A DNA stretch of 28,746 nt. Source: a virus. The stretch covers positions 1 to 28,746 of the IMG/VR virus record IMGVR_UViG_3300017719_000128; one strand, written 5' to 3'. Below are positions 1 to 28,746 of the stretch, in pieces. The position numbers and the translations under genes are program-made. Position 1 is the first letter of the stretch, and every line of letters begins with the position of its first letter. The notes beneath the pieces were generated by a model. That model ran no database searches. It had not been told where the DNA came from and saw only the letters and a list, made by a program, of their open reading frames with translations.

Positions 1-3000
1 CTCCAATGCTTCGGTATAGCTTTCCCCAAATGCAGCCTTTAACTTATTCATTGTTTTGTCGGTAAAGAAAGCGTCTTTAGCTGCTTGCCACGGTTTTAAG
101 TACTCAGATCTTTCAGTTTTGTTTACATACGTTAAAAGATCAGTAGTCATTGAACCGGCATCCCAACCATTATCAGGCTCAGGGTAGCCCATAATAGATA
201 TACCTTGTACGTTTTGAGCAAACGCCAATAAATCTTCATTACCTTTAACAAGTTTTACGTGAGGTGCAATATCTTTCTTTTGCATACCAGGAATAGTATA
301 GCCTAAGCTATTCCATATATATATTCTTACTGAATCCTCGTTTGTAAATCCTGTTTCGTTTTTCCTTGAAAGGCGGGTAGGCGTTCTGCGTATTAACTTT
401 TTAAGTTCTCTAAAGTCTGCCAAGCGCTTTTGTTTTGCCGCGTCAAACTTTCTTATTGCTTTACCAAATGGATCAAATAAGTTTTCTTTTAAAAACTTTA
501 AATCATCGTTACCCTGCTTGCCTTTTCCAACCATATAGTACATAAGACCCGCAAAGTCATCGGCTGAAGGAGGTATAAAAAATCTAAATCTACCTTTATT
601 TTTACCAAGCATTGTAGCAACCTTGTCAGATATTTGTTCGCGTGTGCCAAACCCAGTTGCTCGTGCAATCATTTTATTAAACTCGGGCGCTGCACTTTTG
701 CTAAGTTTTTGAGTTATTTCTTTTGGTTCTAACGGTGTTAATCTTTCTTTTATACCTGTCTTATCATATCGAGTTGACTCTTCCCCAACTTCTTTATAGC
801 CTAAGGTGGTTAGCTCATTATCTGTTTGCTTTGAAACTAATGCTACCTTGCTGTTTTCTAGCTTTTCAAAAAGCAAATCTCTGCTTATTAGTTTATCGCT
901 AATTAAATATGACATAGCCATACGAGCCAGCAAAGATGATGGCGTCATGTGCTCGTACACTAAATTATTAAAGTTGCCTTTTTCAATATAAGAAACAGTA
1001 GCTAATAATTTTAGAGCTGTTCGCATATCACCAGTTTCTAACTGCAGATATGTTCTTGCCATATTAATATTCCCTTTGCTTTTAAGATAATCTATTCTAT
1101 CTTTAAAGTACTCTAATGCTTTTTTAGATTGAATATCAAATTCTGGCTTGAACTCTTCGACACCCATTCTAAATTTTTTATTAGTAGGGTCTTTTATGGC
1201 TGTTATTTGACCATTGCCAATATATATTCTGCCGTTTTGTATTCTAAATATATTTTGGAACTCAGGTGTTTTTTCAATTATTTTGCTATACACATTATCC
1301 CAAGCCTGCTGGTTGGTGGTAAAATACATAGACCCTTGCCGTATGTTTCTTCCTTCAAATGTAATAAAATCTGTAAATCTTTGAAAATGATCACCTGTTT
1401 CTTCATCAATAGCTTGTTGAATATAATTTACAGCAAAATCAATTTGTTGTTTAGCATACTCTTGCCCGTTAGGTGTTAACTCTCCGTTTTTATCTATTAA
1501 GTTTAATGTTAACCCGCCAGAGACTGTAGCAATACCGTCTATTACAGAAATTAAATTAAACTGATTGTCGTTTATATACTCTATTTGGTCTTGACCGTAT
1601 TGTTTATTGCCATTTGCAGGAAATTCACTTTTTAGTCTGTCGACCATTGCCTCAACATAGCTTTCAGGTACAGCTAATTTTGATGCAATTTCAGAATTAG
1701 AAAGACCATCTTTTATATATTTAACAAGTTCAGCACTATCTATTGCTCTTGCGTTTTTTCCTGATAAAGAAAACTTTTGCCGTAAATCTCTATTTACTTT
1801 TAATGCTATTTTAGCGGCTTCCTGCTCTGTATAAGGTTTTGTTTGAATTACACCAGGCGTTGCGTCCGATGCTGTTTGTAACCCTATATTAGCTCCTAGC
1901 TCCGACTTTCTAGCCGCTAATGTGGAAGGCGAAACGGTGTAGCCAAGGATGTCTGACATTGACTCCCCACTGACAGGTCCAGTAAAAAACGCTTGTATTT
2001 GCTCATTAGTAGGGTTTAATACTTGGTACAGCTCTGGGCCATCAGCATCATTTTCTGTGTATACTCTACCAAGAGCAGTATATTTATCTATTTCCGCTTG
2101 CGTAGTTAATCTTTTAACATATTTAGTAAAAATCTTTTGCGTATCTGGCAACAGTCTTTCAATCTGCACCCAATAAGAAATAGGTAAACCTTCTAATAAG
2201 TCTTGTTTGTTTTCTACAACAAAATCTGCTAACTTCTTTTTATTACCTAATGCCTTTTTAATTATAGGCATAAGCTTTTTCTTATATGAGTCAGTAACAA
2301 ATTTTCTAAAATCGCGACTATCTATAGGTGGCAAATCACCTTCAAAAGTTTCATTAGCTGCTGTTCTAATTTCTTGTGCAAGCTCAGGTGTAATAAACGG
2401 TTGTCCGCCCACAGTAAGCGTAGACTTTAGCTGTGATTCAAAAGTTTGCTGCTCTTCTGTTAAATTCCTATCTACAATTTCTTCTATCTGTGCAGACTCT
2501 GTGTCTACTGCTTCAAAACCTCTGCCTTCTGTTTCAACATCTGTAGATATGGTTTTAATTCGCTTAGCATATTCTTTTTTAACATCTCTAATAGCAAAAT
2601 CAACTATAGGTTTAGTTCCAAACAAATATCCAAATAAACTTTCGTTTTTAGCAGGGTCAAAATTCTTTATAAATCTTTCAACTATAACATCTTTAATTTT
2701 TATTATAGCTTGTTTTTTTATGTCTTCGTCAAGACTCCCAAGATTTTCATCAGCATTAACAAGGCCTCTTATATATTTACCCATAGGGTCGCCTTCTAAA
2801 ATTTCATTATATGCATCAAGATAATCTTCGGATTTTTTAAAAGCATCTAAAGTTTTGTATTTTCTTTCGCCCTTTGGCGTTTGTACAAACTTATCAAATA
2901 TACTTTTAAGATCTTTTTTATCAGGCGATACGCTTCTGCTAAACTTAGGTTTTAATCCGCCTTTATCAAGCAAGTCTTCGATTAGCTCTAGCTTTTGATC

Positions 3001-5418
3001 TGCCGACAATGCCTCATACGTACTAAACTGGCCAGATTTTACTTTATCTTGACTTGCAACATCTGGAAACATTGTGTTAGCTGCAACCTGCACAAAGTCA
3101 TATTGATCAAACGGCGATAGATCACTTGCAAATATAGGCTTTGCATCTTTAAGTATTTTTTGAGCTTGTTTACTAAATTTAGCGACTTGAATAGGATCTG
3201 CATCTTTTAATACTTTACTTTTTAAATTAACAAGTAAACCTCTTCTTTGTAATATTTTATTTTTAGAATTTATATTTTTATTATAATTTCTAATAAAGTT
3301 AAATACGTCTTCACCTACGTTTAGTTCAATGCTGCCAAAACCTAAGCCATTATAAAATCTTTTAAGTGAATTTTTTGCTTTAGTAATTAGACCTTCGTTT
3401 ACGGATATTTTCTTTTTATCAACCAAATCTGAAAAAACATTCATATATTCTTCCAAATTACCTTCTTTTATTCTACCAGTTTTTGGATCAGAATAAAATT
3501 GATCAATTCTAGTTTGAACAGACTTGTATATTTCAGGGTGATTTTTTTCTAAATATGTTTTAAAATCATCAACAAGAGACTTCATTGAAGCGTTGTCTGT
3601 TTTAAAAGCTCTAGACATTAAATAGTGCAATAATTCGTGCCCTATAGCATTTGTTTGCCCCGTAGCAGCGGCAACTTCTGTATTAATATAAATTATATCT
3701 TTACCGTCTACACCACCTTCTTTTAAAAACATAGCGTCGGCGTTAGGACCCATACCTTCTATTTCCTCCGCTTGCTTGGTAGTTATTTTTTGGATATCAA
3801 CGTCGTCTGGCAAAATACCTTTAGCTCTTTCAAATCTTTCTTCAATTAAAGAGCTAGCGTCTAAAACTTCTTTAATAACATTTTCAACAGTAGGATCGTA
3901 AAAATCTGTATCACCTATTATGTTATCATTTGCTTTAAAAGCATTTAATACTTTTTCTTTTGCGCTTTGTTGTTGTTCTTCACTGTATCTGCCATCGTTT
4001 ACAATACTAATATTATTATCAATAGTATTTAGGTTATCAGCATAGTTGCGAAGCTCTTGCTTACTTAAAGAATCAAACTTGTCGTTTATAGCTTTCTTTT
4101 TGTTTGAAACGTCCTGCTGTAGATTATCTACTAATACCTGCTGGGCTTCTTTTTTAGGCCCGTCTGGTAAGTTTTCAAGCGTTTGCTTAGCGTTAGCAAG
4201 ATTTATATTAAGATTAGCTATTTCTTGTTTAGCTTTATTAGGAGCTATATATTGATATATTGCATCTTTTTGTTGTTTTGTTTTGGCTGTTTGGGCTACA
4301 CCTGTAACTCCAGATACACCGCCACCTAATAACCCCCCTACTACAAAGTTGTTTACAAATCCTCTAAAATAATCTATATAATCTTTTTCGTCGCCATATA
4401 CCAGTTGATCTGTAGCTTGTTGAAAAGTATCAGTAAGGCCTTCAGTTCCGCCTTCACTTATAAAACCTAAGCCGGCTTTTGATAAAAATTCTTTTATATA
4501 GCTACTCGTAAATTTTTTAACAGCGGTTTTACCTACCCCTGTTTTATTAAGCGCATTTACACTTCTAAATAGTTTACCTCCTAGCCATTCAGTACCAAAC
4601 TCAGCAAAACCTTTCGCGCTTGCAGCTTTGTATATATCTCCAAGTGTTGCGTCAGGTCTTTCTTTTAATGCTGTTTCAAATTCTTTTCCAGCAGTTGACA
4701 TTCCTAAAGCGGCGCTTCCTAATAAAGGAAAAGCGTATGTCACAGCAAGAGACGGGGCTGCGCCAATAGCTTGATCCACTGCAAGCTTTGCAGCATCATC
4801 CATTCTATTTTTAGTAACAAGCTGATCAAACTCTAGCTGCTGACCGTCGTCGTCATAATATTTTAGCTGAAGATCGCTAAGCTTATCGCTTAGTTCATAC
4901 ATTTGCGTAAAGTCTATACCTTCACCTTTTGCTTCAAATTGCTTTTGAAACTCAATTAATTTTTCAGGATCTTTTTGAGCCAACCCGCCAATAAGACGAG
5001 TAGCATTACGTAAATCTAGTCCTGCAGTATATCTTTCAAGGCCATCTATAAGGCCTGGCGCGGTTTCTGTAAAAAACTTTGTAATACCAGCAAGCTTTGA
5101 AACGCCCCCGGGCCCAATAGGCATTGCGCCTACTGATAAATTGCTTAATGTGCTGGCAACAACTTCTCTTTTTAATAAATCTTGTTGTGATAATTGTTCA
5201 CCCGGCGTTAATCCCGATGAAGTATTTACCAAATCTAAGCCCATACTCTGACTTGCGGGTGCTACAGTTTCCTCCACAACCGCACCCGGCGCTGTGGGAG
5301 ATGTCTTTCCCGGCTCAGTTTGTTTTAGCAGAGCCTTAGGATATTTCTGGAGAAATTCCTCTTTTCGAGACGAATGGACTTTAAATTCTCTACCGTCTAC
5401 AATATATATTTCAATCAT
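1..5418 (-). CDS. Giant phage protein with HELLH zincin motif, C-terminus off window
   Basis: The frame is open for 1806 codons from ATG at 5418 to the window edge, so the true protein is longer. The N-terminus (about residues 3-30) is a short beta/helix-like piece containing VDGREF and EEFLQKYP. Hydrophobic, Ala/Gly-rich stretches lie near residues 217-237 and 350-370. A zinc-metallopeptidase motif HELLH sits at 594-598, and E656/E657 are possible third ligands. A helix-turn-helix-like stretch (GLSNSEIASKLAVP) lies near 1227-1262. The distal part (GFTNEDSVRIYIWNSLGY near 1688) resembles a block I recall from giant proteins of uncultured marine phages. It is the last of three genes after the tail genes, where podoviruses encode internal virion proteins. 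I infer an ejected or polyvalent effector protein, possibly with peptidase activity. The specific function is unknown. Confidence 0.75.
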   Translation of the reverse strand, partial: MIEIYIVDGREFKVHSSRKEEFLQKYPKALLKQTEPGKTSPTAPGAVVEETVAPASQSMGLDLVNTSSGLTPGEQLSQQDLLKREVVASTLSNLSVGAMPIGPGGVSKLAGITKFFTETAPGLIDGLERYTAGLDLRNATRLIGGLAQKDPEKLIEFQKQFEAKGEGIDFTQMYELSDKLSDLQLKYYDDDGQQLEFDQLVTKNRMDDAAKLAVDQAIGAAPSLAVTYAFPLLGSAALGMSTAGKEFETALKERPDATLGDIYKAASAKGFAEFGTEWLGGKLFRSVNALNKTGVGKTAVKKFTSSYIKEFLSKAGLGFISEGGTEGLTDTFQQATDQLVYGDEKDYIDYFRGFVNNFVVGGLLGGGVSGVTGVAQTAKTKQQKDAIYQYIAPNKAKQEIANLNINLANAKQTLENLPDGPKKEAQQVLVDNLQQDVSNKKKAINDKFDSLSKQELRNYADNLNTIDNNISIVNDGRYSEEQQQSAKEKVLNAFKANDNIIGDTDFYDPTVENVIKEVLDASSLIEERFERAKGILPDDVDIQKITTKQAEEIEGMGPNADAMFLKEGGVDGKDIIYINTEVAAATGQTNAIGHELLHYLMSRAFKTDNASMKSLVDDFKTYLEKNHPEIYKSVQTRIDQFYSDPKTGRIKEGNLEEYMNVFSDLVDKKKISVNEGLITKAKNSLKRFYNGLGFGSIELNVGEDVFNFIRNYNKNINSKNKILQRRGLLVNLKSKVLKDADPIQVAKFSKQAQKILKDAKPIFASDLSPFDQYDFVQVAANTMFPDVASQDKVKSGQFSTYEALSADQKLELIEDLLDKGGLKPKFSRSVSPDKKDLKSIFDKFVQTPKGERKYKTLDAFKKSEDYLDAYNEILEGDPMGKYIRGLVNADENLGSLDEDIKKQAIIKIKDVIVERFIKNFDPAKNESLFGYLFGTKPIVDFAIRDVKKEYAKRIKTISTDVETEGRGFEAVDTESAQIEEIVDRNLTEEQQTFESQLKSTLTVGGQPFITPELAQEIRTAANETFEGDLPPIDSRDFRKFVTDSYKKKLMPIIKKALGNKKKLADFVVENKQDLLEGLPISYWVQIERLLPDTQKIFTKYVKRLTTQAEIDKYTALGRVYTENDADGPELYQVLNPTNEQIQAFFTGPVSGESMSDILGYTVSPSTLAARKSELGANIGLQTASDATPGVIQTKPYTEQEAAKIALKVNRDLRQKFSLSGKNARAIDSAELVKYIKDGLSNSEIASKLAVPESYVEAMVDRLKSEFPANGNKQYGQDQIEYINDNQFNLISVIDGIATVSGGLTLNLIDKNGELTPNGQEYAKQQIDFAVNYIQQAIDEETGDHFQRFTDFITFEGRNIRQGSMYFTTNQQAWDNVYSKIIEKTPEFQNIFRIQNGRIYIGNGQITAIKDPTNKKFRMGVEEFKPEFDIQSKKALEYFKDRIDYLKSKGNINMARTYLQLETGDMRTALKLLATVSYIEKGNFNNLVYEHMTPSSLLARMAMSYLISDKLISRDLLFEKLENSKVALVSKQTDNELTTLGYKEVGEESTRYDKTGIKERLTPLEPKEITQKLSKSAAPEFNKMIARATGFGTREQISDKVATMLGKNKGRFRFFIPPSADDFAGLMYYMVGKGKQGNDDLKFLKENLFDPFGKAIRKFDAAKQKRLADFRELKKLIRRTPTRLSRKNETGFTNEDSVRIYIWNSLGYTIPGMQKKDIAPHVKLVKGNEDLLAFAQNVQGISIMGYPEPDNGWDAGSMTTDLLTYVNKTERSEYLKPWQAAKDAFFTDKTMNKLKAAFGESYTEALE

Positions 5419-5432
5419 GATTAAATATTTGT

Positions 5433-6944
5433 TTATCTTTTTGGTGGAGTAACAAGATTTCTATATTCTCCTGGTACAGTTGCTGTGTTATCATCAAATG
5501 AAAAAGCTGGCTGTGCTGGAGTAGCAAATTCATTTTCTTCATTTATATTTTCAACAATCCCATCAACTAATTTTTTCATTTGTCTAAACTCTTTAGCCCC
5601 GGCTTGACCTCGTTTTGCTCCAAATTGAGCTTCTAATATTAAGTTATAAACAAACGCTAAATTAGCGGGTTCGCTAAGATCATATACTCTAGGAACTAAT
5701 GATGTTTCATTTGTATCTGGGTCTTCGTATTCTTGCATAATAGTAAATGTTTTATTATTTGCATCCCATTTACTTTGATATCCGGTTGCTGATGAATACA
5801 TATATGCTGGATCATTTTGAATACCCTCAAACACTTCCCCTACAAATGTGTCAGGAATATTTTCTTTCTCTTGGGCCTTTTTAGTGGTTGCTCCGCGCAT
5901 AAAATATTGATTTGACTTTTCGTCATATTCTATGCCCATATTTTCTAACACTTTGGAGGCTTGTTGAGTGGCCATATTATCTGCTATTTTGTCCATGTCT
6001 GACTTATCCACATCGGCCCACTTATTATTATCCCAGTTTCCTAAGGTGTAATTCCAATAGCCACCAATTAATGAAGGACTATCCACATAGCTTTTTACTT
6101 TATTACTAACTGTTATACCAATAGATTCTAATATAGCTTCTCCATCTACAACTTGATCGGTTCTTTCTAATCCATCACCAACTGGTATTGTTCTTGCTCC
6201 TTTTAAGTATTTTGGTAATAAGGCTCCTTCGTCGTTTTTCAATATTTTTTCAGTAGATTTAATTATTTCCTTTGTGGTCTGGGGGGCATCGTTTACAATA
6301 TCTTGCCCGTCATTAACCATTTTCATGTAAGAATCCATGTTTAGTGAAGCACTCGCGCTAACACCCGCGATATTACCAGATGTATTTAACACAAGACTAT
6401 TGCCCTTTCTTGCAAAATTAGCCTTAGCACCAGGAATACGATCAGACATTGCATTTAAAATAAAAGTATTATTTGCAACTTCGTCATTAGTATTGCCGCT
6501 AACCCAGTTGTTAAAGCCTACGCTTGATGCAGGAGTGTCCATCCAAAGTTTAACACCACCCTCAAATTCAGGTACTACGTTTTTTACGTGGTCTCTAAAT
6601 ATTTTTTGGTCAGAAATGGTTTTTAAAAGCTCTTGTCTTCTTTCTTTGTCTAAACCAAGATTCGTGTTTAGTTCGTAATTTGAATTTTTAGTTAGCTCTA
6701 AAGACTCATTTATTAAACTTAATATATCTTCTCTAGCTGTTAAAGATTGTGGTATTTCTTTTGATAAATCACCATATGCTTCTACATGAGCTATATCAAG
6801 CATATTTTTAGTCTTTTGTTGCTCTTTTATAGTAGCCACGTACTTATCAATACCGCTTAGCACATTTTCGCCAAACTGTTGAAAACCTTGCTGCAATATC
6901 TGCGCAGATCTGTCTACTATTATTTTTGGATTTTTATAACTCAT
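5433..6944 (-). CDS. Putative internal virion/structural protein (503 aa)
   Basis: This soluble 503-residue protein has no signal peptide or membrane segment. The N-terminal ~45 residues (DRSAQILQQGFQQFGENV, then a Gln/Lys-rich helix) form an amphipathic helix of a kind I recall at the start of internal proteins in marine podoviruses. The middle is mixed alpha/beta without a recognisable catalytic motif. The C-terminal ~40 residues are Pro/acidic-rich and probably disordered. It lies between the 224-residue Ala/Gln-rich protein and the giant HELLH protein, the position of internal virion or ejection proteins in T7-like gene order. No Shine-Dalgarno is visible; the leader is TAATAAAAAATT. The role is inferred from position only. 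The reading frame itself is certain. Confidence 0.6.
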   Translation of the reverse strand: MSYKNPKIIVDRSAQILQQGFQQFGENVLSGIDKYVATIKEQQKTKNMLDIAHVEAYGDLSKEIPQSLTAREDILSLINESLELTKNSNYELNTNLGLDKERRQELLKTISDQKIFRDHVKNVVPEFEGGVKLWMDTPASSVGFNNWVSGNTNDEVANNTFILNAMSDRIPGAKANFARKGNSLVLNTSGNIAGVSASASLNMDSYMKMVNDGQDIVNDAPQTTKEIIKSTEKILKNDEGALLPKYLKGARTIPVGDGLERTDQVVDGEAILESIGITVSNKVKSYVDSPSLIGGYWNYTLGNWDNNKWADVDKSDMDKIADNMATQQASKVLENMGIEYDEKSNQYFMRGATTKKAQEKENIPDTFVGEVFEGIQNDPAYMYSSATGYQSKWDANNKTFTIMQEYEDPDTNETSLVPRVYDLSEPANLAFVYNLILEAQFGAKRGQAGAKEFRQMKKLVDGIVENINEENEFATPAQPAFSFDDNTATVPGEYRNLVTPPKR

Positions 6945-6953
6945 AATTTTTTA

Positions 6954-7031
6954 TTATACAAATAAAGGATTTGTTACTTTAAAAGTATCCGCTAAGTTTG
7001 AAGGGGGGCTTATTGGCGTTGCCTTTACCCC
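6954..7031 (-). other. Possible -1 frameshift site and 24-codon extension
   Basis: The final codons of the 224-residue gene read GAT TTG GGG TAA, so T TTG GGG fits the X XXY YYZ slippery pattern and touches the stop codon. Reading on in the -1 frame (GTA AAG GCA ACG CCA...) gives 24 sense codons, ending in NLADTFKVTNPLFV and then TAA at 6956-6954. The extension fills most of an 80-base gap, longer and less AT-rich than most gaps here. No strong downstream hairpin or pseudoknot is obvious; only a GGC-AAC-GCC mini-stem is seen. A missing G in the homopolymer run of the assembly would give the same picture. Confidence 0.4.
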
Positions 7032-7699
7032 AAATCAAGATCTTTGTAATTTCCTATTGCAGCACCTGCTAAACTCCCGAGTCCTGACATCATACCCGAT
7101 GTTGCTGCCGCCCCGGCTTCTGCAGCACCTGCCGCCATCGCTCTTTGTTGATCAATTTGACCCGCCATTCTGTCTAGTTTCGCCACGTCTCTAGTTTCTT
7201 GAGCTTGAAATTCAAATTGCTTACCAGCAGCTTGCAACTTCATTATGTCCATTACTTGCCCTTGTTTTTGTACTTCGCCTTGCGCTCGTAATTTCGTATT
7301 ATCAGCTTCTTGTTTTTCAATACTAGATGATATACCCTGTTTACTTTTCGCAGCCGCCTGGGCTAACGCAGTGGCTCCTGCGGCACCCGCGCCAGTGGCT
7401 ACTAAAGTATCTAACGTGCTTGCTAGTGCCATGTCAGTTTCTTCTGCTTGCATTTCCGCTGCTTGTGTAGCAACTTGCAAGTTTTGGTATGGATTTGTCA
7501 CTTTTGTTTCCATACCAGTAAAACTTTCATAAGGATTAACAACTTCTTGTCTTGAATCTTCGAAATTTTTCATTTCTGTATTCAATCTGTCAATTTCCTT
7601 TTGTGCGTTTCTAGCTTTTTTCTTAGCTGCTGAACTTCCGAATAACCCGCCTAAGATTTGTACCCCGGCTGATATTCCCATTAATAGTGGTGCTGCCAT
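7025..7699 (-). CDS. Ala/Gln-rich helical internal virion-type protein (224 aa), possible -1 frameshift extension
   Basis: The protein opens with a glycine-rich hydrophobic segment (residues ~1-22, containing ISAGVQILGGLFG) and continues as long Gln/Ala-rich helices (~23-195, for example NLQVATQAAEMQAEETD). A second Gly/Ala-rich hydrophobic segment (~190-215) follows. This resembles the T7 gp14 type of small internal core protein, which has membrane-active ends and a helical middle; the link is by pattern and position, not proven homology. It is first of three presumed ejection-protein genes after the nozzle partner, from which it is separated by 6 bases. The annotated stop (7027-7025) directly follows a T-TTG-GGG heptamer, and the -1 frame stays open for 24 more codons to 6954, so a longer product is possible. 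Confidence 0.65.
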   Translation of the reverse strand: MAAPLLMGISAGVQILGGLFGSSAAKKKARNAQKEIDRLNTEMKNFEDSRQEVVNPYESFTGMETKVTNPYQNLQVATQAAEMQAEETDMALASTLDTLVATGAGAAGATALAQAAAKSKQGISSSIEKQEADNTKLRAQGEVQKQGQVMDIMKLQAAGKQFEFQAQETRDVAKLDRMAGQIDQQRAMAAGAAEAGAAATSGMMSGLGSLAGAAIGNYKDLDLG

Positions 7700-7705
7700 A
7701 TTTTT

Positions 7706-9184
7706 TTAAATTACTTCTGTGCCAGCAGTAAACAACTCTTTAAATGTTTGTCTAATATCTGCTGTGTCTGTTTTTGTTTCAAATCTTACCTTAGCGGTTT
7801 TACCTTTTACACCGGTAACTGATACTCTTTCTAATACAACTCCTGTATCATAAGGCTGTGAAAAACCTGAAGAGTTAACTATATTTGCATAATAGCCGCC
7901 GTCTTTTTTATTAAACCCTGAAAACTCAACATTACCAGTTATAGGGTTAGCATATTGGCCAGATGGGTATGCTTCAATTTGCATTACAGCCCCTGGCTCT
8001 GTATTTTGTGAGTTTACAATGTCAGTTGTTATATTATTTACTTTCCAGTAATCGGTTCCGGTATATGATATTGTATTGAAGTTTTTAGTTTGAATAGGTG
8101 ACTCATTAAATATTGTAGTTACAAAACTTTTAGAAACTTGCTCAAACTCTGAGTTTGCTAAGCCTTCTTCGTAAAACTTATTATAATCACTAGATATATA
8201 ATGTTTGTATAAATCAAATCCTATATCTTGCCCTGAAAAACCTCCTTTATAAGCATTAAAGCTATATACTTCGTTGTCAAGACTACCTGCAAATGACGGC
8301 ATAAAACCGTAAAAAGAAACCCATCCTTTGACTGAATCATCAAATCCAACAGTACAAAACACACCGCCTGCATCAGTAGTTTTAGTAGGGTCACTAACTA
8401 AAGGCGCTTGAAAAGTGTTGCCTGCGTCTATAGTTGAAAAAGATCCAGCTGTTGATCTGTTGGTAGAGGAGTTCAGTACAGAATCTTCTTGCATTGAAAT
8501 TACATACTTATCATGGTGGTTATCCCAATAGCCCACAATTTTATTACCAGTCCTGGTTGCGTTTTTAAGATTGTCTCTAAAAAAGTCACGCATACCATAA
8601 CTTGATATAGGCGTTACGCCATCTCTTGATAATCTTAATACATCACCTGAATTAGTATCAACGAAGTATTTTCTTGTACCATGCACCGCAAACGACTCTG
8701 GCACTTTTGATATGCCCCACTCACCTGCATAAGAAATAACTTGACCTATAACTTGGCTCCCTGTAGACGTAAGCCCTGTGCCTTCAGCTGTGTATATAGC
8801 ATCTTTATCTATAAGTGCCTGACTAACTTTTCTTTCTTGGAATATAATTAAGTTAGTGTCTTCTGCGTATAGCTTTTGTATGGACCCATTATTTTTATCA
8901 ACAGCTCTAGTTATTTTTTCACCTGAGCTAAATTGATTTGTTTCATTAACATCTGTTCTAGAGTTTATTACACCAGAATATATAATAGCGTTTTCTCTTT
9001 GAAGTCTAGCGTATCTTTCATTAGTAGCATATGCTTTAACCCCAAAGCTCACAGATTTGCCATTAAAAGCACCTTTAATTCTAGATTCTTCTATATGCCA
9101 ACCTTTACTATTAGCCGGGGCTGCACTATTATCTTTTCTTAATATGAAAGTATTAAAATATTTTACTTTTACTGTAGCTGGCAT
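7706..9184 (-). CDS. Tail nozzle partner, beta-propeller-like (492 aa)
   Basis: The protein is rich in short beta strands and aromatic/Gly/Asn turns, with repeated blade-like stretches such as LYAEDTNLIIFQ (near 105-116), PESFAVHGTRKYFVD and YWDNHHDKYVIS. Such stretches, together with the phrase DVLRLSRDGVTPIS, recall the propeller part of T7 gp12/nozzle-type proteins in crAss-like and marine podoviruses. There is no signal peptide or membrane segment. It begins 20 bases after the stop of the 1396-residue nozzle-like gene, so the two probably work together, and may represent a nozzle divided over two genes. The final residues (TADIRQTFKELFTAGTEVI) are helical. The assignment to the tail is inference from pattern and context. 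Confidence 0.55.
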   Translation of the reverse strand: MPATVKVKYFNTFILRKDNSAAPANSKGWHIEESRIKGAFNGKSVSFGVKAYATNERYARLQRENAIIYSGVINSRTDVNETNQFSSGEKITRAVDKNNGSIQKLYAEDTNLIIFQERKVSQALIDKDAIYTAEGTGLTSTGSQVIGQVISYAGEWGISKVPESFAVHGTRKYFVDTNSGDVLRLSRDGVTPISSYGMRDFFRDNLKNATRTGNKIVGYWDNHHDKYVISMQEDSVLNSSTNRSTAGSFSTIDAGNTFQAPLVSDPTKTTDAGGVFCTVGFDDSVKGWVSFYGFMPSFAGSLDNEVYSFNAYKGGFSGQDIGFDLYKHYISSDYNKFYEEGLANSEFEQVSKSFVTTIFNESPIQTKNFNTISYTGTDYWKVNNITTDIVNSQNTEPGAVMQIEAYPSGQYANPITGNVEFSGFNKKDGGYYANIVNSSGFSQPYDTGVVLERVSVTGVKGKTAKVRFETKTDTADIRQTFKELFTAGTEVI

Positions 9185-9204
9185 ACTTTATATTTTTACA
9201 CTTT

Positions 9205-12200
9205 TTAAGGCACTCTTACGTACCATACTCTATTTAATACAAATGCAGAATTATTATTTATTGTCCCGATTTTAAATTCGCTTAATACCCTGTAATTTAC
9301 TGCGCCTACGATCATGTTTTTTCCAGTATCTAGTAATATATTGTTGCCAACACTTAAAGATCCAGTAGCAGCGCCTATTCTATCAACCACACTGCCACTT
9401 GCGTCGTATACAGGAAACCCTTGGCCACCAGCGTTAGTTACATTATAATCATAATTTTGAAAAATAGGTGTTTTGTTGCCTCTATTAGTAACTTCTACTT
9501 CAAAATCTGATACGGGGGATAGCATTGATCCTCTATTAACTCTAAATTGATATCTTGTAGAATTTTTTTGACCCGATGCAAATTCTGATCCTCCCCCAAA
9601 TTGACAATAGTTTATTTGTATATCATTTGGCAAAGTAATTATATTATTAGCTAAAGGCTCTGCAGATGAAGATGCAAACGAATAATATTGAGTACCATTT
9701 CCACCTTTGCCCGACGATACTCTAACTACAGTCAAACCTAAACCAAAACCTCCGTAGTCGCCTAAATCAGCGCCATAATTTACTTTAGTTCCGGTGCATT
9801 GATTTCTAGTCCATTTTGTACAATAGCTAACATCTGGAAATATACCATTACAACCATCCCCGCCTCTTTCTGCTGGCTGAGTAAGTTCTGTTGTGCCAAA
9901 ATAATTAGCTCCACCAACCGTTAAAGTACAATCCTGAAAAGCGCTGCTGCTGTAGTACTCTCCATTTGCGTCTTTAATAATAACTTTGAAATCATAACTT
10001 CCCGTAGGAATAGTATTTCCTGCAATTATATGACCTGTATTTCTATTGATTTCTAAATATGTATTTGCTACTGCGGTGCGTTGTTTATTATAATAAAAAG
10101 GCGGATCGAGTTCAAAAACTATATCTTCTGTTTGGTTTATAATTGAGCCGTTGACACCTGTTACAGCGTGGTCTAATGCCGTCATTGGAGGGGACTGGCC
10201 GGGTAGTGTAAATTGATTTGAGCTTGTAATTGACGGATTTTCATTTTTTAATCTTGTGCTCGCTATCAGGCCTGGGAGTGTTTCTGTAGTATTATGAATA
10301 ACATCAAAATTAAAAGTATAATTAGCGGGACCTAATTCATATGTAAATGTTTTATTAGTTAATGTTTTTATTTTAAAACCAGTAGATACTGCTTCAAATT
10401 CAAAATCACTAGTAACTGTAGCTCCTGAGCTATTTGTTACACTGTTTAAATTTAAGTTATCAATAATCCCAGCAGGAGCCGGGGCTAATAAATTGTCTTT
10501 AGTATCATATATTTTAACTTCGCCTACATATGTGCCGGCTACCGTGTAGTCTGCATTTTCGCTAAAGTCAGTTGTTGGATCTATAGTAAATAAAGCGTAT
10601 GAAGGCTCTGTGGGCACGTCGGAAAGCTCGTTCAATTCATGTACATAGCCACTTGTAGATGTTTCATAATATATATCTAGCACAGATTCAAATGGCTCTG
10701 TTTCAAAAGCATGGAGCACTGGGTCTAACGCGTATGAATATTTTTTAATGCTAATCGCTTCAGAAGTATTAACATTATATTCTTCTTCGCTTACAAAATT
10801 ATCGCATGTAATAACTGTATCAGGAGCTGTAGTAACTATAATTGATTCGACTTTTACTAAATCAGTAGATCTTCCTTTTAAATAATCGCCAACCGCTATC
10901 TCATTTGTTCCGGTTGAAGATAAGTCGACCCCTTTAACTGTTACCGTAAAATCTGTTTTACCAACTACAACCTCATTTACGGTTGGAGATGCTTTCGCAG
11001 AAAAAGAAATATCTGTACCCTTTAAATCAGCTTGACTAACCTGCACCCCCATTCCAGTTGTGCTAACCTTATATGGTATTTGCGAAACTAACATATTTTT
11101 ATTAGCTTCATACAAAAACGCAGATGGTATATCATTTGCATTAACCAAATCTTGTTGTCTGGCAGTACCTACATTGAGAACACTCATTAAGTCACTGTCT
11201 GAGTTTCCGTCTACTGGAGGCGGAGTGTCCGTTAGTCTTATAACTTTTGGAAAAACATTAACAGATGAAGTACCCAGATTTAATTCTTGAATATCATCAG
11301 CGAGCGGATCCCTTGGTATTTTGTTTATGTTTCCACCTACACCTGTCTGAACATAGCTTTTAAATTCACCACTTTCATTTTCTACATCAATAATACCAGG
11401 GGTGTATACGTTATAATATTCTTGTTGATTTTGTTTTACAACGATTCTATAAGAGTACCATCCGTATGGGTTTATATCGTAAGCAAACAAATTAGCGTCA
11501 TTTGATTGAGGCGATAAATTATGATATACACCAGATATTTGCTGATCATCATCTAACCCGTGCAATATCTCAATTATTGTATTTGTGCCATTATATACTG
11601 AAGAAGTAATAGGCCCCACGAAATCTTTGCTTTGGCCTTTTAAATATTTACCTACAGCAAATTCAGTTGTTGCATTACCGTTAGTTATTGTTAACCTTTC
11701 AACAATAGTAGTTGAAGACGGTGTTGCTTGCGAAACAGTAGTTGACCAATTTGCACCCGGTGAAGTGCTGGTACCAGGAAGCGTTAATATTGTGGGTGAA
11801 GCATAAGGCTCTTGGATAGGTTGATTAAATATGCACTCTAGAGCGTCTCCACAGTAATCAGCATTGCCATTATTGCCTGTAGAGTTAGTGTTCCAAAAAT
11901 AATTATAAAAATTTTCATCTCTAGCGGGTACATAAACAGAATGCGCTCCAGTTGTAGACAGTAATACAGGCGATTGCCTGCCATATTTATCTGCTAAAAC
12001 TACGCCTATTTGATAAGATCTTCTTGACTTTATACTATGCAATGGATATTCTTTATGTATTGCATAATCAGCTTCTCTAGTAACAGTAGAATCATTATAC
12101 TTTACATTATAATTAGCTATATAATTTAAGCCTGCTACGCCACTGGTTTTTATTAGGTTTCTGTCTTGTTGAAAGTTACCATACATTATTCTATTACCAG

Positions 12201-13395
12201 ACATTTCTTGAGTTTCAGCTCTGTATGGTACATTATCGTAAACTCTTGTAATTTGTTTTTCAGGTAATGTTTTTGTAGGAAGTATAGAATTGTATACATA
12301 TTTATACATGCCATCTGATGGCATATTTTCGCTACCTCCCGCTAAATTTACTAGCTCTAGCGACTTTACAGATTGTTCGTCAGATTGTTTGTATAGTATT
12401 TCTAAACCAGTAATATCGTAATCATAAGCGGGCTGCTGTGAAGGCATTTTAATATAAATATCTATTTGATTAATTTTATTAATCATACCTTTTTCTTGCC
12501 CGCTAGTTGTGTCATAAAAAGAAACCTCGCCGCTTTCAGCTATTTCTTTTTCTTCGTCAACACCAATTAAAGCAGACTTTGGCACAAAGCACGTGTTTGT
12601 AAACGGGGCCATTGTAGAATATTCTCCGTCAGAAAATCTAAATCTATATGAAAATCTTACAAATTTTTCTTTTAAATAATCTTTATCTATAGACGCTGCA
12701 GCAGATTCATTCATGCTTGAAACATCTGAAAACGCCCCGTCAGGCCCTCCCGCAGAGCTATAGGTATAGTCTAGCAGCATAGGTGCAAATATAGGCGCAA
12801 ACTTAGCTACAGATATCTTATGTTCTGCGTTATAAAAAGCTGGAGTTGTTTTAGCTGTAGATATATTTATTTTTCTTGGCTGGTTTAAGTTATCAGTCCA
12901 AAATAATTGATCCTCTATAATATTTACATTATTTATTGGGTGCGTTATAGAAAAATTTAAAAAACTTCCTGTAACTATTTTAGCTGCAGTAGCAGACCCT
13001 TTTTCCCAACAATATATAGAGCATAATGCAGTAGATGGTGCGAATGGCACTCCTCCAGGTTGCCCTGGTAAATTATCAAATCCAGGGTAAAAAACTTTAT
13101 TTATAGAATCGTATTGATCTGATGATATTTGAAAGTCTGTTGTAAAAAATATAATTCTTTTTTTATTATTATCAAAATACGCACCAATAACAGCAGAACC
13201 ATCTAAAGAACCATCTGAAGAAAAATTTGTTATTTTTTCAAATCCTTTTAATTGCTCAACTGTGCCTGAATCGCTACCTTCTGATTTAGTAACAGAAATA
13301 TTACCAGCCTCTCTATATTCTCCTTTAGGTATTATCTTATCATCAAGGTCAAGATTCATCTTGCCTTTCAGAAAATTATTATTTAATTTTGGCAT
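9205..13395 (-). CDS. Large tail nozzle/tubular-like protein with Ig-like insertions (1396 aa)
   Basis: The N-terminus (NNNFLKGKMNLDLDDKIIP, then GEYREAGNISVTKSEGSDSG and a GFEKITNF strand) matches the opening I recall for T7 gp12-like nozzle and crAss-like tail-tube proteins, in which a conserved loop precedes the beta-propeller. A propeller-like first half includes blades such as EDQLFWTDNLNQPRKINIST. From about residue 800 to 1250 the protein turns Thr/Ser/Val-rich with repeated beta-sandwich signatures (for example FTVTVKGVDLSSTG; VKIYDTKDNLL; LEINRNTGHIIAGNTIPTGSYDF, cadherin/Ig-like). These suggest several inserted or appended Ig-like domains that could face the host surface. The start ATG overlaps the upstream stop as TAATG, so the two are translationally coupled. 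Length is well above T7 gp12 (about 800 residues). Confidence 0.65.
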   Translation of the reverse strand: MPKLNNNFLKGKMNLDLDDKIIPKGEYREAGNISVTKSEGSDSGTVEQLKGFEKITNFSSDGSLDGSAVIGAYFDNNKKRIIFFTTDFQISSDQYDSINKVFYPGFDNLPGQPGGVPFAPSTALCSIYCWEKGSATAAKIVTGSFLNFSITHPINNVNIIEDQLFWTDNLNQPRKINISTAKTTPAFYNAEHKISVAKFAPIFAPMLLDYTYSSAGGPDGAFSDVSSMNESAAASIDKDYLKEKFVRFSYRFRFSDGEYSTMAPFTNTCFVPKSALIGVDEEKEIAESGEVSFYDTTSGQEKGMINKINQIDIYIKMPSQQPAYDYDITGLEILYKQSDEQSVKSLELVNLAGGSENMPSDGMYKYVYNSILPTKTLPEKQITRVYDNVPYRAETQEMSGNRIMYGNFQQDRNLIKTSGVAGLNYIANYNVKYNDSTVTREADYAIHKEYPLHSIKSRRSYQIGVVLADKYGRQSPVLLSTTGAHSVYVPARDENFYNYFWNTNSTGNNGNADYCGDALECIFNQPIQEPYASPTILTLPGTSTSPGANWSTTVSQATPSSTTIVERLTITNGNATTEFAVGKYLKGQSKDFVGPITSSVYNGTNTIIEILHGLDDDQQISGVYHNLSPQSNDANLFAYDINPYGWYSYRIVVKQNQQEYYNVYTPGIIDVENESGEFKSYVQTGVGGNINKIPRDPLADDIQELNLGTSSVNVFPKVIRLTDTPPPVDGNSDSDLMSVLNVGTARQQDLVNANDIPSAFLYEANKNMLVSQIPYKVSTTGMGVQVSQADLKGTDISFSAKASPTVNEVVVGKTDFTVTVKGVDLSSTGTNEIAVGDYLKGRSTDLVKVESIIVTTAPDTVITCDNFVSEEEYNVNTSEAISIKKYSYALDPVLHAFETEPFESVLDIYYETSTSGYVHELNELSDVPTEPSYALFTIDPTTDFSENADYTVAGTYVGEVKIYDTKDNLLAPAPAGIIDNLNLNSVTNSSGATVTSDFEFEAVSTGFKIKTLTNKTFTYELGPANYTFNFDVIHNTTETLPGLIASTRLKNENPSITSSNQFTLPGQSPPMTALDHAVTGVNGSIINQTEDIVFELDPPFYYNKQRTAVANTYLEINRNTGHIIAGNTIPTGSYDFKVIIKDANGEYYSSSAFQDCTLTVGGANYFGTTELTQPAERGGDGCNGIFPDVSYCTKWTRNQCTGTKVNYGADLGDYGGFGLGLTVVRVSSGKGGNGTQYYSFASSSAEPLANNIITLPNDIQINYCQFGGGSEFASGQKNSTRYQFRVNRGSMLSPVSDFEVEVTNRGNKTPIFQNYDYNVTNAGGQGFPVYDASGSVVDRIGAATGSLSVGNNILLDTGKNMIVGAVNYRVLSEFKIGTINNNSAFVLNRVWYVRVP

Positions 13396-27650: not shown

Positions 27651-28094
27651 CTATCTTTCTTTATCGTTATTTATTCTTTTTATCGCAACCTGAAGCATCC
27701 TGTCTGTATACGCTTTACTTTTAATTACACTTTGTGTTGTGCTGCTGGGGATATCTTCTTCACCTGTAAGTATTCTATAAACACGAGCTAATAGCTGTGT
27801 TGCTTTTAAAGATACTTTATATAGACTGCCTTTGCTGTCTGATTTGTTACCTCTTCGCCATAATACTATCCAGCCTTCTTTTAGAAGTCGTGAGAACCTA
27901 TTATTATCCCAGCTGTATGCATATGTATTAAGTTTAAAATCTTTTTTGCTAAAAAAGCCTTGACAGTCTAAAAATAAAAGAAGCTCCAGATCTGCGTCTT
28001 TTATTCCGTAATTTCTGCACGCCCATCTTCTAACTATACGGTAGTGCTTTAACACGTTTGAGTCACGCAAATCTGAAGCCCTTATTGTTTTCAT
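27651..28094 (-). CDS. Winged helix-turn-helix protein, MarR-like (147 aa)
   Basis: Helices at ~12-30 (NVLKHYRIVRRWACRNYG), 31-45 (DADLELLLFLD) and ~48-75 (SKKDFKLNTYAYSWDNNRF, SRLLKEGW) are followed by a wing-like beta hairpin (WIVLWRRGN...GSLYKVSLKA) and a long helix (TQLLARVYRILTGEED). This is the order of a winged helix of the MarR kind, with the recognition helix probably near SWDNNRFSRLLKEG. The C-terminal 30 residues are basic and may be a tail. A phage transcriptional regulator is the natural reading, although no operator can be named. The start overlaps the groES stop (ATGA), so it is translated with the chaperonin genes. Confidence 0.65.
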   Translation of the reverse strand: MKTIRASDLRDSNVLKHYRIVRRWACRNYGIKDADLELLLFLDCQGFFSKKDFKLNTYAYSWDNNRFSRLLKEGWIVLWRRGNKSDSKGSLYKVSLKATQLLARVYRILTGEEDIPSSTTQSVIKSKAYTDRMLQVAIKRINNDKER

Positions 28095-28351
28095 AATATA
28101 ACGACTACATCCTGCGCTTTAATTACATTGTATACTTTATTTTCAAGTTCAATGGAATGGCCGGCGTGCCTATCATAATAAATAGCATCGCCAGCCTTTA
28201 TTCCAACTATATCGGCGCCCGCTGATATTACGCTTGCTTTTGCGTATCTTATATCTTCACGGGCATTTTCTGCAATTAGCAGACCGCCTTCTGTTTTTTG
28301 TGAACCTTGTTTTTCTTTTTCTACTATTAAGTAATGCCCGATTGCTTTCAT
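28091..28351 (-). CDS. groES: Co-chaperonin GroES (86 aa)
   Basis: This heptameric lid of GroEL is recognisable over its length: YLIVEKEK (7-14), a mobile-loop region ending in GGLLIAEN (22-29, with the LLI hydrophobic tripeptide at 24-26 that replaces the IVL that contacts GroEL), AKASVISAG (37-45), IKAGDAIYYD (51-60, the GD turn), and IELENKVYNVIKAQDVVVIL at the end (67-86), as in GroES proteins. It is 86 residues against about 97 in E. coli. Its ATG overlaps the groEL stop (ATGA), so groEL is translated first, reverse of the bacterial groES-groEL order. It likely helps fold capsid or other virion proteins with the phage or host GroEL. Confidence 0.9.
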   Translation of the reverse strand: MKAIGHYLIVEKEKQGSQKTEGGLLIAENAREDIRYAKASVISAGADIVGIKAGDAIYYDRHAGHSIELENKVYNVIKAQDVVVIL

Positions 28352-28746
28352 AACTGTTCTACTCTAACGTTATTAATTACACAATCGGTTGATATGATTG
28401 TTGTGGCTACTGAAGCCGCGTTCCGAAGAGCGCTTTTAGTAACAAGTAGCGGGTCGATAATTCCAGATTTAATCATATTCACCATACCCCCTGTAACAAC
28501 ATTTAACCCTTTGCCTTTAATAGTAGGCTCTTCAAATTCTTCAATACCTGCATTGCTAAGTATCGTATAGAAAGGCGCTTTAATTGATTTATAAAATAGT
28601 TCTTCGCCTTTACTGACAGCTTTTATTTTCTGTGCAGCATTTAAAAGGGCTATTCCACCACCTGGTACTATACCTTCTTTAATCGCGGCTTTTGTAGCAC
28701 ATATAGCGTCTTCAACTCTATCACGCTTTTCTTTTAACTCAACTTC
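28348..28746 (-). CDS. groEL: Chaperonin GroEL, C-terminal part
   Basis: The frame is open from the window edge for 132 residues, then TGA. It matches the last quarter of GroEL: EVELKEKRDRVEDAICATKA (here the Asp at residue 13 corresponds to E. coli D398, needed for ATP hydrolysis), KEGIVPGGGIALLNAA, and SGIIDPLLVTKSALRNAASV, followed by ATTIISTDCVI. The usual GGM-repeat tail is missing: the protein ends at VINNVRVEQL. The intermediate region is also shorter and diverged (EEFEEPTIKGKGLNVVTGGM). Missing N-terminal domains lie beyond the right edge. It would fold virion proteins, probably with the adjacent GroES. Phage-encoded GroEL is known but rare. Confidence 0.93.
   Translation of the reverse strand, partial: EVELKEKRDRVEDAICATKAAIKEGIVPGGGIALLNAAQKIKAVSKGEELFYKSIKAPFYTILSNAGIEEFEEPTIKGKGLNVVTGGMVNMIKSGIIDPLLVTKSALRNAASVATTIISTDCVINNVRVEQL

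Follow-up and report, generated by a model that had tools for sequence, protein, structure and literature searches.

Probable programmed −1 frameshifting at the very end of a putative ejection protein gene in crAss-like phages

The window, that is, the whole 28,746-nt stretch of viral DNA analyzed here, carries on its minus strand a set of crAss-like genes (table 1). A crAss-type muzzle is present, with matches to PF25731 and PF25729 above their cut-offs; the terminase and the portal match PHROGs 6681 and 6547, respectively, and a virion structural gene (PHROG 13704) was taken as the capsid in our comparisons. By capsid and terminase, the nearest named records are MW202828, the Flavobacterium elemo phages, Maribacter phage Panino and Cellulophaga phages, and six of the ten homologous loci found in GTDB lie in MAGs labelled Bacteroidetes, Crocinitomicaceae, Flavobacteriaceae or Saprospiraceae. 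The window virus is probably a marine crAss-like phage with a host among marine Bacteroidota. Two genes at 28091-28746 look to us like GroES and the C-terminus of GroEL, which presumably suggests a phage-encoded chaperonin. The muzzle itself is split in the window (7706-13395) into genes of 1396 and 492 aa, against a single protein (gp44) in crAss001, and no X_XXY_YYZ heptamer occurs at the end of the first, 1396-aa gene.

The muzzle genes are followed by three genes coding for 224, 503, and more than 1806 aa, in the order small, medium, large. The podovirus ejection clusters described in PMC8954989 comprise gp14-like (181-240 aa), gp15-like (431-982 aa) and gp16-like proteins; like T7 gp14 and P22 gp7, the 224-aa protein would be encoded by the first of three ejection genes, and the first two window proteins fall within the gp14- and gp15-like size ranges given there. 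In crAss001, the cargo proteins gp45 and gp46 are numbered after the muzzle gp44, and the C-terminal domain of gp45 is bound to the portal (PMC10172136). The 224-aa protein shares with gp45 its position after the muzzle but not its size, crAss001 gp45 being a protein of 90.8 kDa (PMC10172136). Proteins occupying the same slot, namely elemo gp20 and Panino CDS0072, are annotated as virion structural proteins. Searches of a named phage collection with both the DNA and the protein of the 224-aa gene returned no match, and its function could thus not be read from an isolate. Similarly, the protein has no Pfam or PHROG match at E ≤ 0.001, and a profile search of solved structures (PDB) gave a best E of 0.57. 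Its AlphaFold2 model consists of long helices (mean pLDDT 69.9, pTM 0.40), for which Foldseek returned nothing at E ≤ 0.001, the best values being 0.48 in the PDB and 0.084, to an uncharacterised phage protein, in BFVD; weak BFVD matches named internal virion or DNA transfer protein had E above 2 and were not used. Since neither the PDB profile search nor Foldseek revealed a relation in sequence or fold to T7 gp14, P22 gp7 or crAss001 gp45, we say that the 224-aa protein works like gp14 and do not class it as a homolog. Gene order and size make it likely that it is a gp14-like ejection (cargo) protein. The adjacent 503-aa protein matches nothing in Pfam, and PHROG only at E ≥ 0.027.

In its own frame, the 224-aa gene ends in GAT TTG GGG TAA (minus strand). 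A slip back by one base on T_TTG_GGG would give access to 24 further sense codons, VKATPISPPSNLADTFKVTNPLFV, which stop 9 nt before the ATG of the next gene at 6944. Both the heptamer abutting the stop and the 24-codon extension filling the gap had been pointed out in a first-pass annotation, and both are confirmed. Because the −1-frame TGA abuts the heptamer, the open stretch of that frame starts at the heptamer itself, its codons directly after the TGA being TTT GGG GTA. ATG, GTG and TTG are all absent from the window's tail in this frame, and a slip at the heptamer is thus the direct way in. The same observation weighs against the idea that the tail is a separate small protein started within the −1 frame. 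In the set of 35 tails defined below, a start codon (ATG, GTG or TTG) giving at least 20 codons is found in 15, the window not among them, and 18 contain no ATG whatever; moreover, such a protein would leave unexplained both the co-occurrence of tails with heptamers and the in-frame versions of tails reported below, and we consider it most improbable.

The openness of the tail is by itself weak evidence. The 80-nt gap has a GC content of 0.325, and 24 open codons are expected at that composition with P ~0.15, so that openness alone proves little; the G/C-richness of the gap, taken in the first-pass annotation as a sign of coding, does not hold overall, only its first 27 bases being so (15/27, by eye). 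It is the comparison with relatives that lifts the tail above chance. Among the 26 gene ends checked in the window, an X_XXY_YYZ heptamer no more than five codons from the stop was found at three, this one included; of the remaining pair, one has a −1 frame of 4 codons before a stop and the other of 9. The heptamer TTTGGGG recurs in the related locus L012, there followed by AAG TAG. The frameshifting review cited here as PMC5009743 is that of Atkins et al. 2016. A run of six C lies at 7003-7008, 17-22 nt past the stop codon; frameshifting in T7 gene 10 is reported to be affected by a distant CCCC (PMC5009743).

Table 1. Features at the end of the 224-aa gene and in its surroundings, in window positions.
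Feature	Position	Strand	Basis or remark
Muzzle, N-terminal part (crAss_MUZ)	9205..13395	minus	Pfam
Muzzle, C-terminal part (crAss_MUZ_C)	7706..9184	minus	Pfam
224-aa gene, first of the putative ejection (cargo) slot	7025..7699	minus	Short form; 0-frame stop TAA at 7027-7025
−1-frame TGA fixing where the slip must occur	7035..7037	minus	Read from sequence
Putative slippery heptamer T_TTG_GGG, abutting the stop codon	7028..7034	minus	Read from sequence
Hairpin candidate GGC-AAC-GCC, 3 bp, after the stop	7015..7023	minus	Sequence; weak, function doubtful
24-codon −1-frame tail VKATPISPPSNLADTFKVTNPLFV and its stop	6954..7028	minus	Sequence, L240 comparison; stop TAA at 6956-6954
503-aa gene, gp15-like in size and placing	5433..6944	minus	Starts 9 nt past the tail stop
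Very large gene, >1806 aa, gp16-like by position	1..5418	minus	Runs off the window

Relatives of the 224-aa gene were gathered by scanning IMG/VR seven times and GTDB once, several of these scans giving the best 80 matches (in one case the best 80 of 545). The matches listed amount to 473 sequences including the window, of which 11 reach the contig end without a stop and 172 have duplicate ends, leaving 290 distinct gene ends. These were classed by the gap and the −1 open frame alone: among the 290 ends listed, 34 have both a −1 tail and a long gap, in 244 less than 50 nt separates the stop from the next gene, and the other 12 fit neither class. An in-frame X_XXY_YYZ at most three codons from the stop is found at 27 of the 34 tail loci versus 11 of the 244 no-tail loci (Fisher p 2e-22, with all 34 tail-class loci and without L049, L158 and L331). 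GGGAAAN stands at the gene end of 21/34 tail loci and of none of the 244 others, the 11 with a heptamer included, and inside genes it occupies 8 of 69,720 codon positions; GGGG directly followed by the stop is found at 5/34 versus 0/244. Seven heptamers are represented among the tail loci, GGGAAAG, GGGAAAC, GGGAAAT, GGGAAAA, AAAAAAG, AAAAAAC and TTTGGGG, the commonest being G_GGA_AAG, and the T_TTG_GGG of the window is rare even here (2/34). Seven tail loci have no heptamer: three (L017, L237 and L239) make up the GGGG-stop group, the sites of two more (L077 and L285) are irregular, and the last two, L045 and L329, look chance-like. Among the 12 ends of neither class, L049, L158 and L331 do combine a heptamer with a −1 tail, the first two lying at contig ends with the next gene out of view and the third having had its next-gene start misassigned in the classification; L027, L028 and L030 are tailed in the +1 frame, and the remaining six show neither pattern. 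Dropping the two chance-like loci and adding these three −1 cases gives the set of 35 tails used for the tail pairs, folding energies, start-codon counts, tree, stems, C-terminus test and duplicate-end check. The +1 loci were kept apart, except in the tail-pair scores, the tree and the C-terminus test (the last without L028). Tail length across the family ranges from 16 to 60 residues.

In a FastTree tree of the 254 proteins (of 290) that remained after thinning, 251 of them with a state and the +1 loci counted as tailed, the tail state changes 22 times. Over 17 independent pairs on this tree, the slip site (heptamer or GGGG-stop) follows the tail state in 14.5 on average and opposes it in 0.2. 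By comparison among relatives, slip site and −1 tail thus occur together, and a scattered set of relatives very probably makes an extension of this kind with different slip sites. The programmed frameshift suggested in the first-pass annotation is supported: where relatives carry a tail, the stop is accompanied by a slip site and the −1 frame encodes a related peptide. Homologs devoid of both heptamer and tail had been named there as an adverse outcome: by that measure, the absence of the tail from 244 of the 290 ends would speak against its conservation, but those ends, the 11 mentioned apart, lack the slip site as well.

Alternatively, the window tail might once have been in frame and have been cut off by an indel through sequencing, assembly or real mutation, no slippage being involved, as the first-pass annotation had also considered for the homopolymer. 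The tail of the window is known from a single record, and the loci L083 and L089, described below, differ in the length of a run of A, so that L083 could be such a case. On the other hand, in L240, the closest of the tailed relatives, the end of the tail is identical, likewise out of frame, and preceded by a different heptamer, and the placing of GGGAAAN at the stop in 21/34 tail loci and 0/244 others is not expected of random indels. In addition, each of six tail loci is represented in two IMG datasets by identical 180-nt ends (L017/L018, L077/L078, L266/L267, L285/L287, L313/L314 and L030/L031, the last a +1 case). Overall, we hold an indel in the window to be very unlikely.

Some members of the family (L003, L005, L007, L009 and others) possess an in-frame C-terminal domain with SDRRLKKNI...VDYS. 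In L003 this domain weakly resembles the endosialidase chaperone Peptidase_S74 (Pfam E 0.0095, below the cut-off; PHROG 6121, E 8.5e-13), an unexpected partner for a protein in the ejection slot. In L111 (3640-3690), the −1 frame past the 0-frame stop reads INKIDVEFKRIS, similar to the end of the same domain, as if the rest of a chaperone-like domain had been lost.

The tail peptides themselves are related to one another. In all, 23 of 703 tail pairs outscore the best of 3000 shuffled pairs. The tails of the window and L240 have LADTFKVTNPLF in common, that of L240 following GGGAAAT; over 12 codons, all 12 residues (the last 12 of the window tail before its final Val) are identical and the five base differences are all synonymous. 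L352 has a related ELSDIFKVVNPI, likewise in the −1 frame. Judged by the comparison with L240, the window tail is under purifying selection. Pooled over 12 tail pairs, pN/pS is 0.42. Since these pairs were picked and aligned by protein, which favors the −1 frame, nine of them were re-aligned as DNA, and the differences then fall on the three −1 codon positions as 66/52/99 (p 3e-4). Little constraint is apparent in some pairs, with pN/pS values of 1.16 for L315/L377 and 0.78 for L017/L237. A second KVTNP is found in the body of the 224-aa protein (residues 66-70, window 7490-7504), echoing the FKVTNPLF of the tail, and may be due to chance.

These values are also relevant to a scenario in which the slip serves translation rather than the tail, slipped ribosomes restarting at the nearby next start and so determining how much of the following ejection protein is made. 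The 9-nt distance between the window tail and the next ATG, the weak constraint on some tails, and the no-tail relatives, which also stop near the next gene (gap < 50 nt in 244 of the 290 ends listed), would suit such a role. The exclusively synonymous differences between the window tail and L240 argue against it, and coupling alone would need no in-frame motif of the kind found in L474 and L476 (see below). We therefore give this scenario little credence.

Several tails occur in more than one frame. As the first-pass annotation had proposed to check, relatives encode tails in frame: the −1 tail of L181 is in frame in L170, and that of L083, whose slip region is a run of A (AAAAAAAAAC), is in frame in L089, the difference in run length between these two being a possible indel. 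In the +1 loci L027, L028 and L030 the tails follow GCC TTT GGG TAA C, and the +1-frame C-terminus VSTLTPQGYSF of L027/L028 is identical to the end of the −1 tail of L022, so that slippage seems to have switched direction. A scan of IMG/VR with a degenerate DNA pattern for DTFKVTNP gave three matches, namely the tail of L240 itself, L474 and L476. In the latter two the motif is read in frame, close to the end of a 260- or 264-aa protein in the same slot: the gene order is crAss_MUZ_C muzzle protein, 172-aa gene, DTFKVTNP gene and 633-aa gene, followed in L476 by a very large gene related to that of the window (E 4e-10), while the L474 contig ends inside the counterpart of the 633-aa gene. No relation between the bodies of these two proteins and the window family was detected beyond the motif. 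In a test of tails against in-frame C-termini, L476 scored P < 0.001, having been picked by that very motif, and the end FAVTNPLF of L451 is only suggestive (P 0.078). Applied to named relatives, the same test gave P values of 0.052 for Panino, 0.28 for elemo and 0.89 for MW202828, and was not used. In MW202828, Panino and elemoF an out-of-frame tail would not fit, since the gene either overlaps the following one or is separated from its start by at most 3 nt.

We also investigated RNA structure around the slip sites. At the 28 of the 35 tail loci with GGGAAAN or AAAAAAN, on which the stem count and the energy profile are based, a strong stem begins 3-9 nt past the heptamer in 16, compared with a mean of 3.6 and a maximum of 10 of 28 in shuffles and 2-3 of 28 at displaced positions; it is absent at the remaining 12. 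In 26-nt windows, the mean folding energy reaches −6.7 kcal/mol at the end of the heptamer; upstream, in the windows from 60 to 8 nt before it, the values are −1.9 to −4.5 kcal/mol, and downstream, beginning at 12 nt, −0.8 to −1.9 kcal/mol. In dinucleotide z-scores the signal is modest, with a mean of −0.57 after tail slip sites versus +0.24 after no-tail stops (p 3e-4). These z-scores fail to separate slip sites from gene bodies (−0.57 versus −0.31, p 0.21), for which raw folding energy gives p 0.01, whereas the position-specific stem count does separate slip sites from shuffles. The 40 nt downstream of the window's own site fold weakly (−4.4 kcal/mol, z +0.68), with no strong stem. Slippage by RNA polymerase, instead of the ribosome, could be envisaged at the few sites that are A runs, such as AAAAAAAAAC in L083 and the AAAAAAG loci. 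Nevertheless, the window offers only GGGG, the GGGAAAN sites have no long run, and X_XXY_YYZ in phase with a downstream stem is a ribosomal signature; transcriptional slippage is accordingly among the least plausible of the explanations weighed here.

Taken as a whole, the comparative evidence makes it highly probable that, in this crAss-like phage, ribosomes undergo a programmed −1 frameshift just before the stop codon of an ejection protein gene that is gp14-like by its order and size. Most ribosomes would stop at the TAA and release the 224-aa protein. With tRNA-Leu and tRNA-Gly on T_TTG_GGG and the stop codon next, a fraction would slip back by one base and add the 24-residue tail, ending 9 nt before the next gene, so that a short and a tailed form would be made in a set ratio. 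In the window and the L017 group, a single tRNA might instead slip on GGGG with the stop in the next site, yielding the same product. Of the canonical features of −1 frameshifting, the window has an in-frame X_XXY_YYZ and an open −1 tail under selection, the latter not being evident in every tail pair; L077 and L285, tailed and lacking a heptamer, count against this reading, as do the weak fold past the window's own site, the rarity of T_TTG_GGG, the canonical loci devoid of a strong stem, the tails with a start codon of their own, and the three named relatives with no space for a tail. The ribosomal nature of the slippage and its rate are inferred, and both forms may enter the virion. The tail, in turn, would be a docking peptide needed in few copies. 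Along these lines we tentatively put forward, as one possible scenario, that the two isoforms exist in a ratio fixed by frameshifting, that the docking peptide of the rare tailed form places a few copies at a unique site (the portal, the muzzle or the next ejection protein), and that this ratio is preserved in the lineage even as slip sites are freely exchanged and the tail moves between −1, +1 and in-frame encoding.

The mechanism is of a known kind. G_GGA_AAG is rated as highly shift-prone in Escherichia coli in PMC5009743, where phage structural genes are described as extended by −1 (T3, A2, A118, A500, and also T7) or +1 (PSA) frameshifting, and where in-frame versions of such extensions are noted, with Ig-like tails in frame, −1 or +1. 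As in T7 gene 10 (10A/10B), T3, Lactobacillus A2, and Listeria A118, A500 and PSA (PMC5009743), a virion gene would here be extended C-terminally near its stop. In those cases the gene codes for the capsid or the tail tube, whereas that of the window lies in the ejection slot, and the window family differs further in its tails of 16-60 residues and in a slip site that changes repeatedly within one family. A parallel can also be drawn with lambda gpG/gpGT and other tail assembly chaperones, in which a low-level −1 shift near the 3′ end gives a minor longer product; those chaperones, however, are absent from the mature virion and serve long tails (PMC5009743), in contrast to the window gene, which follows the muzzle in a podovirus-like crAss-type gene set. 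Among the nearest named phages by capsid and terminase, MW202828, Panino and elemoF differ in having no space for such a tail at the gene end. The word frameshift is absent from the main texts of PMC8954989 and PMC10172136, and no frameshifted ejection protein was apparent in the titles and abstract openings of the matches listed from the openly licensed literature. What is new is the gene, the shortness of the tails, and the speed at which a single family exchanges its slip site and frame.

The frameshifted phage genes cited here from PMC5009743 code for capsid, tail-tube and tail-chaperone proteins, to which a gene heading a putative ejection cluster would now be added, in a group of crAss-like phages well represented in IMG/VR. 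One implication is that, for a set of virion proteins, the C-terminus escapes standard gene prediction. Additionally, a single family in which the tail is −1, +1, in frame or absent, and is reached through seven heptamers, provides a natural series for the evolution of recoding, and why only some copies of the protein would carry the tail becomes a testable question.
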